Positions 13,557 through 17,884 of a stretch of 49,990 bases of DNA are shown here, one piece after another (within the stretch, counting starts at the first letter, position 1; every line of letters starts with the position of its first letter). This DNA comes from Patescibacteria group bacterium (GTDB lineage Bacteria > Patescibacteriota > Kazan-3B-28 > UBA10110). Under the pieces are notes generated by a model that did no database searches, was not told the DNA's origin, and worked only from the letters and a program-made list of their open reading frames with translations. The position numbers were made by a program, and so were the translations under genes. Location of the stretch: contig JAFGPN010000001.1 in NCBI GenBank assembly GCA_016936175.1, positions 1 through 49,990 of the forward strand, read 5' to 3'.

Positions 13557-15926
13557 CTATTTCACTATCAAATTAATAATTCGACCCGGAACGTAGTGGC
13601 GCTTAACAACTTTTTTGCCTTCTATGTGGGTAGCCAAGCTGGGCAAGGCTATCGCTAGCTTCTCCACCTCTGCTTCGTCAGCAGTTGGTGAAACAGATAA
13701 AGTGCCGCGCAATCTGCCGTTAACCTGAACTGCTACGGTTACCGAATCCTCGAGCAGTAGCTTAGGATCAAACTTGGGCCAATCAGAAACAAAGATGCTC
13801 TGCTTATGACCAAGCTTTTGGTAAATCTCCTCTGCGATATGTGGCGTCATTGGCGCCAACAGCATCACTAACCTCTCGAGTGCCGATTTGGTAATTCCCC
13901 GATCAATTGCCAAATTAACAAACTCCATGCAAGAGCTAACGATGGTATTAAATTTCATCTGTTCGATATCGTCGGTAACTTTTTTAATCAGTTTGTGGAT
14001 TGCCCGATCGGTTTCGGGAGCCTTAGCAACCGGTTTTAAACTCCAGACTCGATTTAAGAACCGGCGAACACCTTCTATCCCGGCGGTATTCCACGGCAAA
14101 GGTTGGTCAAAGGGACCCATAAACATCTCATACATCCTTAAGGCGTCGGCTCCAAACACTTCGATTACCTCATCTGGGTTTATTACATTGCCTTTGGATT
14201 TGCTCATCTTCTCTCCATCCGTTCCCAAAATCAGACCCTGATGCCGAAGTTTCAAAAAAGGCTCGTTAAAATTAATGTAACCAAGTTTATGCAAAACTTT
14301 TACGATAAATCGAGCATAGAGTAGATGCCCGTTAGTATGCTCGGACCCGCCAATATATAGGTCCACCGGCATCCAGTGTTTTAATGATTCCGCACCAGCA
14401 AATTCCGTTGCGTTATGTGGGTCGCAATAGCGCAAAAAATACCAGGACGAGCAGACAAAGGTATCCATCGTATCTAATTCCCTGCGCGCGCCCTTGCCGT
14501 ATTTTTTTGCCACCCCAGATTGGAATTTTTTAGATAGTGCCAGCGGTGATTCGCCGGTTGGTTTAAAATCTACATCGGTGGGTAGTTTAATTGGCAACTC
14601 CTCGACATCAACGCTTCTAACCCCACCATCGGCCAGATGGATAATTGGAATCGGCGCTCCCCAGTAGCGCTGACGGGATACCAACCAATCATGTAGCTTA
14701 TACTGCACCGTTATCTTGCCACCAAAGGTCTCAGCCATATCTGCCCCCGCTATCTGTGATGATTGTCCAGTAAATCTACCAGAATTTATTAATTTGCCGT
14801 GGCCAACATATGGCAACTTAGATTGATCTGATTCTACAACTTCCGTTATCGGCAACTTATGCTTCGTTGCAAATTCAAAATCCCTATCATCGTGAGCCGG
14901 TACCGCCATAATTGCACCAGTGCCATAATCGGTTACGACATAGTCGGCTACCCAAATTGGGATCTCAGATTCAGTCGCCGGATTGATCGCACAGGCGCCA
15001 GTAAAAACACCCGTTTTTTCTTTGGCGACCGTCCGATCTAAGACACTCTTTAAACGAGCATCTTTAATATACTTCTCGATTTTATGCTTTTGCTCTTTGG
15101 TTACAATCCGTTTAATCAACGGATGCTCTGGAGCTAAGACCAAATATGTTGCACCAAACAGCGTATCTGGACGCGTGGTAAACACTTTGATTCTTGATTT
15201 TTCACTCTTAATTTTAAATTCAATTTCTGCTCCTTCGCTTTTGCCAACCCAGTTTTTTTGTCCGGTTTTGGTCGATTCGGGCCAATCTAATTTATCCGGA
15301 TGGCAGGCCAATTCATCAGCAAAATCAGTGATCTTAAAAAACCACTGTTTTAGATTTTTCTGCTCTACCACAGCACCACAACGATAGCAACAACCATCAA
15401 CCACCTGTTCGTTGGCTAATACGGTTTTATCTTTGGGGCACCAATTTACACACGCCTCTTTTTGGTAGGCGTAACCATTATCGTAAAGTATCTTAAAAAT
15501 CCATTGGGTCCACTTATAGTAACTGGGGTCGGCGGTATTTAACTCCCTGTTCCAATCGTAAGCAAATCCCAGCGACTTAACCTGTTTGCTAAATCGGACG
15601 ATGTTAGCCTTGGTCAGTTTCGCTGGAGGTTGCCCTATCTTAATGGCATAATTTTCTGCGGGTAAGCCAAAGGCATCCCAGCCCACTGGTCGCATAACAT
15701 TATGGCCCAGCATCCGGTGATATCGAGCTAATATATCAGTGGCGGTATAGCCCCTGGGATGACCAACATGTAGACCATCTCCCGAGGGATAAGCAAACAT
15801 ATCCAAGGCATAGTACTTGGGGTGATGGTTGTCGGCAGTAGCCTTAAAAATCTGCTGCGTAGCCCAAAACTTCTGCCACTTTCGCTCTATTTTCTGATGA
15901 CTATATTTTTTTATTACTACCTTCAT
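13557..15926 (-). CDS. leuS: Leucyl-tRNA synthetase
   Basis: A 789-aa class Ia synthetase that charges tRNA-Leu. The HIGH motif appears as HVGH (53-56, in DGLHVGHPRGYTATD) and the KMSKS motif as GEKMSKSKGN near 595. Zinc-type cysteines occur in CVNWCPKDK and CCYRCG (about 157-182). The CP1 editing domain (about 220-400) shows TRPDTLFGATYLV and the TGAIMAVPAHDDRD signature. An anticodon-binding domain and a short C-terminal domain follow. The length is slightly below the usual 800-860. Confidence 0.97.
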   Translation of the reverse strand: MKVVIKKYSHQKIERKWQKFWATQQIFKATADNHHPKYYALDMFAYPSGDGLHVGHPRGYTATDILARYHRMLGHNVMRPVGWDAFGLPAENYAIKIGQPPAKLTKANIVRFSKQVKSLGFAYDWNRELNTADPSYYKWTQWIFKILYDNGYAYQKEACVNWCPKDKTVLANEQVVDGCCYRCGAVVEQKNLKQWFFKITDFADELACHPDKLDWPESTKTGQKNWVGKSEGAEIEFKIKSEKSRIKVFTTRPDTLFGATYLVLAPEHPLIKRIVTKEQKHKIEKYIKDARLKSVLDRTVAKEKTGVFTGACAINPATESEIPIWVADYVVTDYGTGAIMAVPAHDDRDFEFATKHKLPITEVVESDQSKLPYVGHGKLINSGRFTGQSSQIAGADMAETFGGKITVQYKLHDWLVSRQRYWGAPIPIIHLADGGVRSVDVEELPIKLPTDVDFKPTGESPLALSKKFQSGVAKKYGKGARRELDTMDTFVCSSWYFLRYCDPHNATEFAGAESLKHWMPVDLYIGGSEHTNGHLLYARFIVKVLHKLGYINFNEPFLKLRHQGLILGTDGEKMSKSKGNVINPDEVIEVFGADALRMYEMFMGPFDQPLPWNTAGIEGVRRFLNRVWSLKPVAKAPETDRAIHKLIKKVTDDIEQMKFNTIVSSCMEFVNLAIDRGITKSALERLVMLLAPMTPHIAEEIYQKLGHKQSIFVSDWPKFDPKLLLEDSVTVAVQVNGRLRGTLSVSPTADEAEVEKLAIALPSLATHIEGKKVVKRHYVPGRIINLIVK

Positions 15927-16008
15927 GCCGACGTTTTTTATCTGTCCAGTAGCTTAATTTTAACATGGAGCCCCTAACTCACTAAATGGTCTGCCACGGC
16001 CCAATGGG

Positions 16009-16076
16009 AAAAACATCCCGCGCTAACAGGCCACAAAATAACAAAAGGAGTCCTTTGGCCTGTTTAGTGCTGGGAT
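16009..16076 (-). terminator. Large two-tier hairpin with T-run
   Basis: On the minus strand ATCCC (16076-16072) and the 9-bp stem AACAGGCCA/TGGCCTGTT (16064-16056 with 16033-16025) enclose a second perfect hairpin AAAGGA/TCCTTT (16056-16044). The outer strand ends GGGAT and is followed by GTTTTT (16013-16009). It reads as an intrinsic terminator, but its nested architecture suggests a structured RNA end of the orphan-gene transcript. Nothing else recognisable lies in 15927-16008. Confidence 0.6.
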
Positions 16077-16083
16077 AAGTAAG

Positions 16084-16122
16084 GCCGGGCATATCCTTGA
16101 AATCTCAAGGTAGAGGCCCGGC
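16084..16122 (-). other. Nested hairpin in the 3' trailer of the 112-aa gene
   Basis: GCCGGGC (16084-16090) pairs with GCCCGGC (16116-16122), and inside them CCTTGA (16095-16100) pairs with TCAAGG (16105-16110). It is not followed by T residues, so it is not an ordinary terminator. It adjoins the two-tier hairpin and probably forms one structured RNA with it. Confidence 0.6.
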
Positions 16123-16178
16123 TATGGAAAATGGGGTGCTACCCAGCTATTGATAACGTGTCCGCTTCTTCCTGTCAT
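16122..16178 (-). CDS. Possible 18-aa leader-like peptide
   Basis: An ATG at 16178 preceded by AGGAGG (16188-16183, 4 bases away) opens an 18-codon frame reading MTGRSGHVINSWVAPHFP, ending in TAG at 16122. It lies 14 bp downstream of the 112-aa gene and its codons cover one arm of the 14-bp inverted repeat. The Shine-Dalgarno is as good as that of the main gene, but spacing is short and coding potential cannot be judged at this size. Confidence 0.3.
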   Translation of the reverse strand: MTGRSGHVINSWVAPHFP

Positions 16179-16629
16179 TGTTCCTCCTACGACTACTTTT
16201 TCTTTTGAACAACCGACACTCCGGCAAAAACCTCGTTCATGGCTAATTCAACCACCTCGCGTTGTGATAGTTGATTACCCTCAACTTGGTTTCGCCCCTT
16301 ACGCTTTCGGCTAGACCGAAATCGGCTCTCGAGATCCCTGACTTTGTTGGTCAATCGATTAGCCTCATCGTCGGTCAGACGCACAAACTCCCCGGCCATC
16401 TGTCGAATCTCCGATTGCGTATAACAACCATCCACAAAGATGGCTCCGAGAGTAATCACTCGGCGTTTGCAGTTGGCAGAGGGAAAAATCAGTCGAACAG
16501 GTTTGTCGGGAGTATTAGACAGCCTAGGCATGCTAATCACCTCCTCATCGACTAGACTACACTACAAAAACACCTGTTTATCCCCTTCAGTTCCTTTTGT
16601 CAAAGAACATGGTGGATAGCTGGGTAGCA
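16137..16629. repeat. 14-bp perfect inverted repeat bounding the 112-aa gene
   Basis: TGCTACCCAGCTAT at 16137-16150 recurs as its exact reverse complement at 16616-16629, enclosing 465 bp that hold the 112-aa gene and the small peptide frame. In the minus-strand transcript the two arms lie in the 5' leader and the 3' trailer and could pair. They could equally be terminal repeats of a small cassette. Confidence 0.6.
16193..16531 (-). CDS. Hypothetical basic 112-aa protein
   Basis: The start at 16531 is an ATG with GAGGAGGTGATTAGC directly upstream, the strongest ribosome site in this part of the window. The protein is basic, with an N-terminal half containing two predicted strands (VRLIFPSA, RRVITLGAIFVDG) and a helical C-terminal half (about 48-90, including DDEANRLTNKVRDLESRFRSSRKRKGR). 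It has no signal peptide or TM segment and ends in QKKK. I do not recognise a family. The Lys/Arg-rich helix could bind nucleic acid, which would fit the structured RNA around the gene; that is inference. Confidence 0.65.
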   Translation of the reverse strand: MPRLSNTPDKPVRLIFPSANCKRRVITLGAIFVDGCYTQSEIRQMAGEFVRLTDDEANRLTNKVRDLESRFRSSRKRKGRNQVEGNQLSQREVVELAMNEVFAGVSVVQKKK

Positions 16630-16646
16630 GTTCAACAGGCATTTAC

Positions 16647-16652
16647 ATTATA
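16647..16652 (-). promoter_or_regulatory. -10 box for the 112-aa gene
   Basis: A perfect TATAAT on the minus strand has no clear -35 box. It would give a leader of about 110 bases containing a CCTGTT...AACAGG pairing followed by TGTTTTTG, and one arm of the 14-bp inverted repeat. Upstream (16680-16777) lie palindromes but no gene: GTTCTGCTG/CAGCAGAAC at 16720-16739 and AACCTG/CAGGTT at 16757-16778. Confidence 0.4.
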
Positions 16653-16777
16653 CGCCAAAACCCCCTGTAGCGGGATGATAATTTATGGTGGTGCATTCTG
16701 GATGCGAAGGCCTGTCGTAGTTCTGCTGTCCAGCAGAACGCAGTCGGAAAGTGGGAACCTGGATGAGAGAGAACAGG

Positions 16778-17395
16778 TTAGGGGCGCTGGGCTATCAGAT
16801 ACAGCTTAGTGAAGTTTAGTTCTTGATTAGAGGATGGCTGACGGCTGTATGATTTGACCACCTTGAACCCAGTGCCTTTCAGCAATCTCGTGATCTCCGG
16901 CAAAGATATAACATTGAGAAACAGCTTCTCCCCTGGCTTAAAGGGTTCATCAACAAACATCTCCCGCGACCTCCCAGCTTGGAAACCAATATAGAGTACT
17001 CCGTTGGGTTTTAGAAGTTTATGAAATTGGCGTAACAATGCAGGGACATTTTTCTTTGGGATATGAATTAGAGAGCAAGAAGCCACAATACCATCGGCGC
17101 TTTGAGCAGGCAATTTGATTTTACGCATATCCTCCAGACGAAAATCTATTGCTGGATAGTCACGCTTGGCGACATTGAGCATCTCGCGAGATAGATCGAA
17201 ACCAACTACTTTGAAACCTTTGCTATGGATGAACCCTGTGTCTCTGCCTGTGCCGCAGCCGACATCTAACACCATTCCTCCTTTTGGGAGTTTACGCAAA
17301 AACTCACCCAAGTGTTCTGAGGGACGATTAAATTGCTTGGCATACTGGGTAGCAATTTGGTTATAGACGGCAACTGATGATTTGGATTTATCCAT
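16778..17395 (-). CDS. Class I SAM-dependent methyltransferase
   Basis: A 205-aa Rossmann-type methyltransferase. Motif I is VLDVGCGTGRD (42-52), the acidic end of strand 2 is VVGFDLS (63-69), and motif III and the post-motif region are FRLEDMRKIKLP and DGIVASCSLIHIPKK. A methyltransf_11/25-type single domain fills the chain. The substrate cannot be deduced; neighbours are a GIY-YIG gene and an orphan gene, an accessory setting. Confidence 0.88.
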   Translation of the reverse strand: MDKSKSSVAVYNQIATQYAKQFNRPSEHLGEFLRKLPKGGMVLDVGCGTGRDTGFIHSKGFKVVGFDLSREMLNVAKRDYPAIDFRLEDMRKIKLPAQSADGIVASCSLIHIPKKNVPALLRQFHKLLKPNGVLYIGFQAGRSREMFVDEPFKPGEKLFLNVISLPEITRLLKGTGFKVVKSYSRQPSSNQELNFTKLYLIAQRP

Positions 17396-17464
17396 TACAA
17401 CCTCATCTTAACAGTTCCAACCACACTTTGCTGTCAAATAAAAAGCAGTCCCACAAAGGAGATT

Positions 17465-17704
17465 TTAGAACAAGTGTTTGTTGGCGAAGGCCTTGCCGGA
17501 ATGTGATTTTAGATATTGCTCAAATCCTTTAGCAGTTTTTTGTTTCTCGAAAGCGGAATAAAAGATCAGATCCCAGGGCTTGTGTTTGGCGGTATATTTT
17601 GACTGTCCTGCGTTATGGGCTTTAATTCTCTGCTTTAGCTCATTACTAAACCCAACATAAACTCTGCCATTGACCTGGCTTTTGATGGCATAAACGTAAT
17701 ACAT
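17465..17704 (-). CDS. Standalone GIY-YIG nuclease-domain protein (copy 1, beside tRNA-Ala)
   Basis: A 79-aa single GIY-YIG domain. The two core strands are YYVYAI (2-7) and RVYVGFS (14-20). Catalytic candidates are Arg26 in KQRIKAH and Glu62 in FEQYLKS, with Lys-rich ends. The start at 17704 is chosen because it matches the family N-terminus (M-YYVY) and lies 6 bases after a TATAAT; the 11 upstream in-frame residues are non-family. Small proteins of this type (UPF0213-like) are often called endonucleases, but their role is unproven. It lies about 45 bp downstream of an inverted-repeat module attached to tRNA-Ala, the same layout as copy 2 at 32034-32288. Confidence 0.88.
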   Translation of the reverse strand: MYYVYAIKSQVNGRVYVGFSNELKQRIKAHNAGQSKYTAKHKPWDLIFYSAFEKQKTAKGFEQYLKSHSGKAFANKHLF

Positions 17705-17710
17705 AAATTT

Positions 17711-17716
17711 ATTATA
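17711..17716 (-). promoter_or_regulatory. -10 box giving a leaderless GIY-YIG mRNA
   Basis: TATAAT on the minus strand lies 6 bases before the ATG, so transcription would start at or beside the start codon. A weak TTTGCA lies 16 bp upstream as a possible -35 box. Confidence 0.55.
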
Positions 17717-17748
17717 TGCCCATGCTTCGTTCTGCAAACTACGCAGGG

Positions 17749-17810
17749 CAGTCTTCGCTTTTCATTATATTGGCGAAGCCAGGCGTAGCTACCGCAGGTA
17801 GCGAAGACTG
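17749..17810 (-). repeat. Inverted-repeat module fused to the tRNA-Ala CCA end
   Basis: The 11-bp arms CAGTCTTCGCT (17749-17759) and AGCGAAGACTG (17800-17810) enclose hairpins TGGC-GAA-GCCA (17771-17781) and GCTACC-GCA-GGTAGC (17788-17802). The right arm includes the CA of the encoded tRNA CCA. No T-run follows on the minus strand. Confidence 0.75.
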
Positions 17811-17884
17811 GTGGACCTGAGGGGATTCGAACCCCTGACCTCCTCCATGCCATGGAGGCGCTCTACCAACTGAGCCACAGGCCC
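17809..17884 (-). tRNA. tRNA-Ala (anticodon GGC)
   Basis: A 76-base cloverleaf beginning GGGCCTG, with D arm GCTCAGTTGGTAGAGC, anticodon loop ATGGCAT closed by CCTCC/GGAGG, T arm GGGGTTCGAATCCCC and acceptor CAGGTCC-A-CCA with CCA encoded. The acceptor has the G3-T70 (G3:U70) pair that identifies tRNA-Ala. It starts 5 bp after the stop of the membrane-protein gene at 17890 and is probably co-transcribed with it. Confidence 0.96.

Follow-up and report, generated by a model that had tools for sequence, protein, structure and literature searches.

A candidate self-regulating mRNA upstream of leuS in a Kazan-type CPR bacterium, with conserved, pairable ends around a fast-evolving small protein gene

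Our study revealed a cassette lying between tRNA-Ala and leuS, directly upstream of this leucyl-tRNA synthetase gene, in an uncultured ultra-small bacterium. In it the usual pattern of conservation is inverted, with conserved untranslated ends around a protein that is not conserved. The ends very probably carry conserved RNA elements, judging from their comparison between two genomes, and a long-range helix predicted to join them is probably functional. Such a combination of a fast-changing protein and conserved RNA ends that are able to pair suggests an mRNA that regulates itself. Our preferred reading is that the cassette mRNA is independently transcribed and uses long-range 5'/3' pairing to autoregulate post-transcriptionally, as in hbs of Bacillus subtilis, and we place this reading about midway between doubt and acceptance.

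Results

The window, which is the whole stretch of DNA analysed (contig C4, 49,990 bases), belongs to a source genome of 670 kb in 18 contigs (G000). It was compared with a sister genome of the same genus, candidate division Kazan bacterium RIFCSPLOWO2_01_FULL_48_13 (G001), with an order sample of nine genomes and with a phylum sample of ~380 genomes. In the sister genome the cassette occupies the same place, on contig METE01000004.1. Nearly all order genomes examined share the gene order of a gene that we take to be DUF4870-like (the window copy had no Pfam match), tRNA-Ala(GGC), a variable interval and leuS. The tRNA-Ala(GGC)–leuS interval (window 15927-17884; L018-L023, L077, L013) was seen to be a hotspot whose gene content differs per order genome and includes GIY-YIG, methyltransferase and nudix-like genes, a possible homing-endonuclease-like protein and a membrane protein. 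In two genomes (G003 and G005) it is empty, and tRNA-Ala adjoins leuS with nothing between. Directly downstream of the cassette lies a separate promoter block (Table 1), which is also found in G002 and G003, both without the cassette, and this comparison shows leuS to have an independent predicted promoter of its own.

Table 1. Coordinates in the window of the cassette features and of the adjoining leuS promoter block
Feature	Position	Strand	Remarks
Cassette -10 promoter box, TATAAT	16647..16652	-	Kept in the sister genome; missed by the earlier note
Structured 5' leader, terminator-like shape around the leader arm	16545..16640	-	~80-90% identical between source and sister genomes
Leader arm of the long-range helix	16616..16629	-	TGCTACCCAGCTAT on the minus strand; perfect complement of 16137-16150
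Shine-Dalgarno of ORF1	16536..16544	-	Sequence GGAGGTGAT; rare in the source genome
ORF1, fast-evolving basic protein, 112 aa	16193..16531	-	Predicted pI 10.3; start, Shine-Dalgarno and stop kept in the sister genome
ORF2, mini-ORF, 18 codons	16122..16178	-	MTGRSGHVINSWVAPHFP; own strong Shine-Dalgarno AGGAGG at 16183-16188; missed by the earlier note
Trailer arm of the long-range helix	16137..16150	-	Minus-strand sequence ATAGCTGGGTAGCA; located within ORF2
Trailer hairpin 1	16084..16122	-	CCGGGC-CUCUA-CCUUGA-loop-UCAAGG-AUAU-GCCCGG; starts at the ORF2 stop codon
Trailer hairpin 2	16015..16076	-	One double compensatory change preserves the stem; apical loop varies
leuS promoter block, separate	15936..15975	-	TGTTAAAATTAAGCTA...; 95% identical to the sister genome; missed by the earlier note

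An earlier note on this DNA had described a 112-aa ORF, its Shine-Dalgarno (SD) sequence and a 14-bp inverted repeat, all of which were found in place. ORF1 runs from an ATG at 16531 to 16193, and an alternative GTG at 16540 would make a product of 115 aa. Besides its SD, the window has only one other GGAGGTGA-plus-start site, and this SD is among the 15 that precede an ORF of at least 50 codons in the 668 kb of the source genome used for this count. At the corresponding position the sister genome has an ORF of 98 aa with an SD. The two products share 19-23% identity, with a BLASTP E value of 0.004 in a single comparison, a local score that beats shuffles (P = 0.003) and an identity at codon position 2 of 65%, and they are considered distant homologues because of these three results. 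Nothing meaningful was matched in Pfam, NCBIfam, PHROGs, PADLOC or PDB sequences, and a protein-pattern scan of genome and viral contigs, tblastn in phages and a profile search of the ~380 phylum genomes returned only the sister-genome relative; profile matches in G228 and G339 (E near 0.01) were at chance level. The AlphaFold2 model of ORF1 (pLDDT 63, pTM 0.43) is weak, and neither the PDB search nor the viral one returned a match below E = 0.1; no DNA-binding family or fold was matched.

Fourfold-degenerate sites of leuS are 36% identical between the source and sister genomes, which is near saturation. Similarity at the DNA level was found in two blocks, the leader and promoter (90% over 97 nt) and the stretch from the trailer up to and including the leuS promoter (82% over 231 nt), and the ORF1 region between them had no DNA match in the sister genome. 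By segment, identity was 80% for the leader, promoter and ribosome-binding region, 43% for ORF1 nucleotides, 62% for the spacer and ORF2, 85% for the hairpins, 95% for the leuS promoter and 36% for the sequence beyond the cassette promoter. As the ends are conserved despite saturated fourfold sites and a divergent ORF1, strong selection at the nucleotide level acts on the untranslated ends and not on the protein. This pattern strongly supports a putative RNA function of the cassette ends. The leader and trailer models matched no third genome among the nine order and ~380 phylum genomes. The leader model R2 hit the source and sister genomes only; a trailer-model match in G067 (24.5 bits) covered hairpin 2 only and was at the level of chance for 380 genomes.

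Upstream of the -10 box, sequence is not conserved (33 nt at 36% identity to the sister genome), and no consensus -35 was found for the cassette promoter. The leader stem CCTGTT/AACAGG of the earlier note is present beside five T on the minus strand; its full closing stem, GCCTGTT/AACAGGT, pairs 16634-16640 with 16572-16578, with an inner hairpin GTTCTTTGACAAAAGGAAC and the five T at 16566-16570. RNA folding of the leader by itself predicts a terminator-like hairpin. A scan of viral contigs with the leader-arm pattern gave 7 matches, which were taken as chance. Alternative pairing of the AACAGG and CCTGTT strings between leader and trailer had also been envisaged. It is not kept in the sister genome, where the leader copy is unchanged and the trailer hairpin now reads AACAGACC/GGTCTGTT.

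ORF1 is followed by ORF2, and a mini-ORF with its own SD after an ORF is an arrangement found for only 3 of the 856 source-genome ORFs, ORF1 included. The sister mini-ORF is MRVFGHAINSWATPNLD, in which SD, frame and stop are kept even though the length has changed at the start (17-18 codons). Coding constraint on ORF2 is not proven, because substitutions within it are mostly amino-acid-changing. The peptides, of 17-18 aa, are polar and have no leucine run, with no Leu codon in the source genome and one in the sister. Both trailer hairpins and the T-run of the earlier note were recovered, the second hairpin being slightly longer than described. Hairpin 1 is invariant in sequence in the sister genome, save one loop base and the outermost pair, and is without a T-run in either genome. 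The T-run after hairpin 2 (16009-16013) is confined to the source genome, having been lost in the sister. Together, the trailer hairpins fold far better than shuffles (z = -3.4). A DNA-pattern scan of genome contigs for hairpin 1 returned 40 stretches; the known sister record was the sole one to score with the trailer model. The earlier note would have counted against its reading a protein absent elsewhere together with hairpins that are not conserved; protein and hairpins co-occur in the sister species.

The inverted repeat places one arm in the leader and the other in the trailer, with the conserved -10 box before the leader and the hairpins after the trailer. Across the whole window there are 2 perfect inverted repeats of at least 14 nt within 600 nt, where first-order Markov copies have 0.09 on average, and a leader-trailer helix of at least 14 bp was found for 4 of 955 source-genome ORFs of at least 90 codons. 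The remaining three we judged from their sequences to be palindromic or dispersed repeats. Complementarity between leader and trailer of this one mRNA therefore exceeds chance, as in mRNAs that pair their 5'UTR with their 3'UTR. The helix measures 14 bp in the source genome and 13 bp in the sister, where one terminal pair is lost. The comparison shows a co-varying predicted helix, with two double compensatory changes in the sister genome (C-G to U-A and A-U to G-C). Under equal numbers of random substitutions, so many pairs would be kept with a simulated P of ~0.008. Sliding the partners by 1-3 columns lowered the paired cells from 98% to ~34-41% and the double changes from 3 to 0; a column-shuffle control was by itself weak (53/500). 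Because the collections searched hold only two orthologous sequences, the covariation of the helix rests on two pairs.

Full-transcript folds of both species gave the helix core a pairing probability of ~0.99, with or without ORF1 masked as ribosome-covered, and the leader closing stem disappeared from them. This exclusivity of leader stem and long helix is a prediction and is partly built into the method, because nested folding forbids both together. Cross-species duplexes of the arms had weaker energies than the cognate ones.

Two further genomes of the order, from a second family (G006 and G007), have related ORFs of 92 and 110 aa at the same spot (36% identity, E = 1e-7). TATAAT and a leader lie ahead of each ORF, and behind it come an SD, a mini-ORF (16 and 8 codons), a stop codon and a hairpin, after which there are T-rich stretches. 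In all four cassettes, comparison shows the same order of a predicted mini-ORF with an SD and a stop codon that abuts or enters a hairpin. Homology of the ORF1 family to the G006/G007 proteins, or to that of G004, was not supported (hhalign probability <1%, shuffle P 0.13-0.62), and we term these ORFs analogous solely in position and layout. With proteins that change this fast, common descent of the G006/G007 ORFs with ORF1 is possible. The G006 protein gave an AlphaFold2 model of pLDDT 52, and a match of the G006/G007 profile in G342 fell within what reads, from its sequence, as an MscL-like channel protein and was dismissed as chance. Leader-trailer repeats in G004, G006 and G007 were short or outside the predicted transcript.

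As separate observations, the G006 and G007 leaders (L020:1011-1090; L077:1409-1500) share GCACCTTGA and then AAGGAGGTGA, possibly an anti-SD/SD pair able to sequester the ribosome-binding site in these genomes. In G004 (L018:995-1363), the tRNA-Ala/leuS interval holds an unrelated 104-aa ORF with a leader-trailer inverted repeat of 9/10 pairs, which could be chance.

Discussion

The preferred mechanism is drawn from the source and sister sequences. It involves a small operon of ~630 nt between tRNA-Ala and leuS, the mRNA of which would comprise a structured leader, ORF1, mini-ORF2 and two 3' hairpins, in a single transcript from a start at 16640 to an end at ~16010. The nascent leader would fold first into its terminator-like hairpin. 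Once the 3' end is made, the leader arm would pair with the ORF2 arm over 13-14 bp and the leader hairpin would open. The resulting helix would join both ends of the mRNA, with the middle of ORF2 in duplex, and may determine how stable the message is or how well it is translated, which would set the dose of ORF1 protein post-transcriptionally. We infer the start and end of transcription, the switch and its direction, and the function of ORF1. A self-regulating protein-RNA unit had been among the suggestions of the earlier note; the conserved ends and the co-varying repeat agree with it in outline, with autoregulation and binding by the ORF1 protein as putative components. Control could be exerted in cis by the paired ends, as summarised for hbs (PMC7821165), or in trans, with a stable 3' fragment pairing with the leaders of new transcripts, as for OppZ and CarZ (PMC7398697).

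Among known systems, the hbs mRNA is described in PMC7821165, summarising Braun et al. 2017, as having a 14-nt 5'UTR-3'UTR interaction that shields the leader from RNase Y, and its 3'UTR, according to that summary, is not conserved in close relatives. The cassette resembles hbs in its 14-nt end-to-end pairing, small basic protein and structured leader, and differs in that its 3' arm lies in a mini-ORF, its protein is unrelated and fast-evolving and its pairing is kept by covariation. In the icaR mRNA of Staphylococcus aureus, a UCCCCUG motif in the 3' region covers the Shine-Dalgarno, creating a substrate for RNase III (PMC3868564). The cassette likewise pairs a 3' region with its own 5' region; however, the leader arm lies ~72 nt upstream of the ORF1 SD, and direct repression as in icaR is not expected, because the arm does not touch the SD. 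OppZ and CarZ are autoregulatory sRNAs cut from Vibrio cholerae 3'UTRs, which inhibit translation and depend on RNase E (PMC7398697). The cassette shares with them a structured 3' end that can base-pair with the transcript it belongs to (a feedback in OppZ/CarZ), whereas its pairing site lies at a distance from the ORF1 SD and a processed 3' fragment is hypothetical. RNAIII of S. aureus, whose 5' and 3' regions pair, codes for delta-hemolysin and acts as a regulator of other mRNAs (PMC7821165); it too is a short structured RNA of similar size with paired ends around a small ORF, but has no relation to the cassette by sequence or family, Rfam giving nothing.

Matched changes in both arms would also be expected from co-evolving DNA operators, one copy just inside the transcription start and the other 480 bp off, bound by the ORF1 protein or another regulator and changing together as protein specificity changes, in transcriptional autoregulation that may involve looping. 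The basic, very fast-evolving ORF1 and a leader arm that starts ~18 bp downstream of the -10 box would fit such operators. The arms, however, are not palindromic, unlike usual dimer operators, the distal copy lies inside ORF2 and far from any promoter, ORF1 matched no DNA-binding family or fold (by a weak structure model), and what is conserved in the leader and hairpins around the arms is RNA structure, hairpin 2 contributing a further compensatory pair. We consider operators unlikely, and we give the same low weight to a reading in which ORF2 is a translation-sensing leader mini-ORF, a ribosome at its stop codon blocking the hairpin and causing read-through into leuS, with ORF1 a passenger. 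Leader-peptide attenuators of the tnaC, trp and leu type have a mini-ORF with a strong SD and a stop codon abutting a hairpin. All four cassettes have the mini-ORF order described above, T-rich stretches follow the G006/G007 hairpins, and leuS is always the next gene. The cassette differs from such attenuators in lacking a codon run for the regulated amino acid, as the Leu codon counts indicate, and a T-run at hairpin 1 in both the source and sister genomes, and leuS has its own promoter downstream, common to genomes without the cassette. Moreover, no T-box was found by Rfam, and attenuation would leave the leader and the long helix unexplained.

The very fast evolution and small size of the protein, together with a variable interval beside tRNA-Ala whose content differs per genome, could instead indicate a toxin-antitoxin or phage-conflict module, in which ORF1 would act on targets in host or phage and be restrained by the RNA ends or by the small peptide. 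A toxin-antitoxin-like module had been raised by the earlier note and is not favoured by our data, as PADLOC, Pfam, NCBIfam and PHROGs gave no match, the second ORF encodes a polar peptide unlike type I toxins, there is no type III-like repeat array and no relative was found in viral contigs or phages; we regard it as somewhat less likely again than operators or attenuation. Least probable, and in our view improbable, is an ordinary conserved terminator with an attenuator and a coincidental inverted repeat. A 14-bp repeat over ~480 bp is possible by chance genome-wide, given the four ORFs noted above, most of them from repeats, and hairpin 2 with its T-run is terminator-like in the source genome. 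Yet the helix persists, with two double changes, at a divergence that is saturating. Hairpin 1 is preserved in its sequence and not just in its shape, which exceeds the requirement of a terminator, and the sister genome has lost the T-run. The small cassette with terminal repeats that the earlier note had also proposed, whether a mobile cassette or a MITE, was rejected, as it is present in a single copy in the source genome, the conserved block extends past both arms (into the promoter and towards leuS) and there is no transposase.

Searches for known RNAs were also negative. No riboswitch, T-box or other Rfam 15 family matched 15900-16700 at E up to 5, and the sister cassette gave three weak, irrelevant Rfam matches. 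There was no RF00023 or ARAGORN match to tmRNA at the locus, the tmRNA of the sister genome lies elsewhere, and RNase P RNA lies elsewhere in the source genome; a reading of the cassette RNA as a missing tmRNA or RNase P RNA was accordingly discarded.

End-to-end pairing in bacterial mRNAs is known from a handful of cases, several of which are not conserved in close relatives (PMC7821165). Our comparative evidence, with compensatory change at saturating divergence, points to an end-to-end helix in a CPR bacterium. The CPR is a huge and almost entirely uncultured group, in which RNA regulation is essentially unexplored. Tentatively, and with more doubt than attaches to the mechanism preferred here, the cassette may represent a regulatory mRNA of a new kind, belonging to Kazan-type CPR, with a conserved two-ended RNA scaffold, a co-varying helix, a mini-ORF stop-hairpin end and a diversifying protein; the plan of gene, SD, mini-ORF and hairpin upstream of leuS would then be order-wide.

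Some minor observations were made alongside. The source genome has no tmRNA above the cut-off, whereas 7 of 8 order relatives have one, and this may reflect an assembly gap (90% complete). At window positions 16716-16743 lies a palindromic intergenic repeat, GTTCTGCTGTCCAGCAGAAC, with a few similar copies elsewhere in the source genome; short matches to it are numerous in G004 and other relatives. Near the end of source-genome contig C16 (L112:9533-9758), Rfam identified a group I intron with 99 bits.
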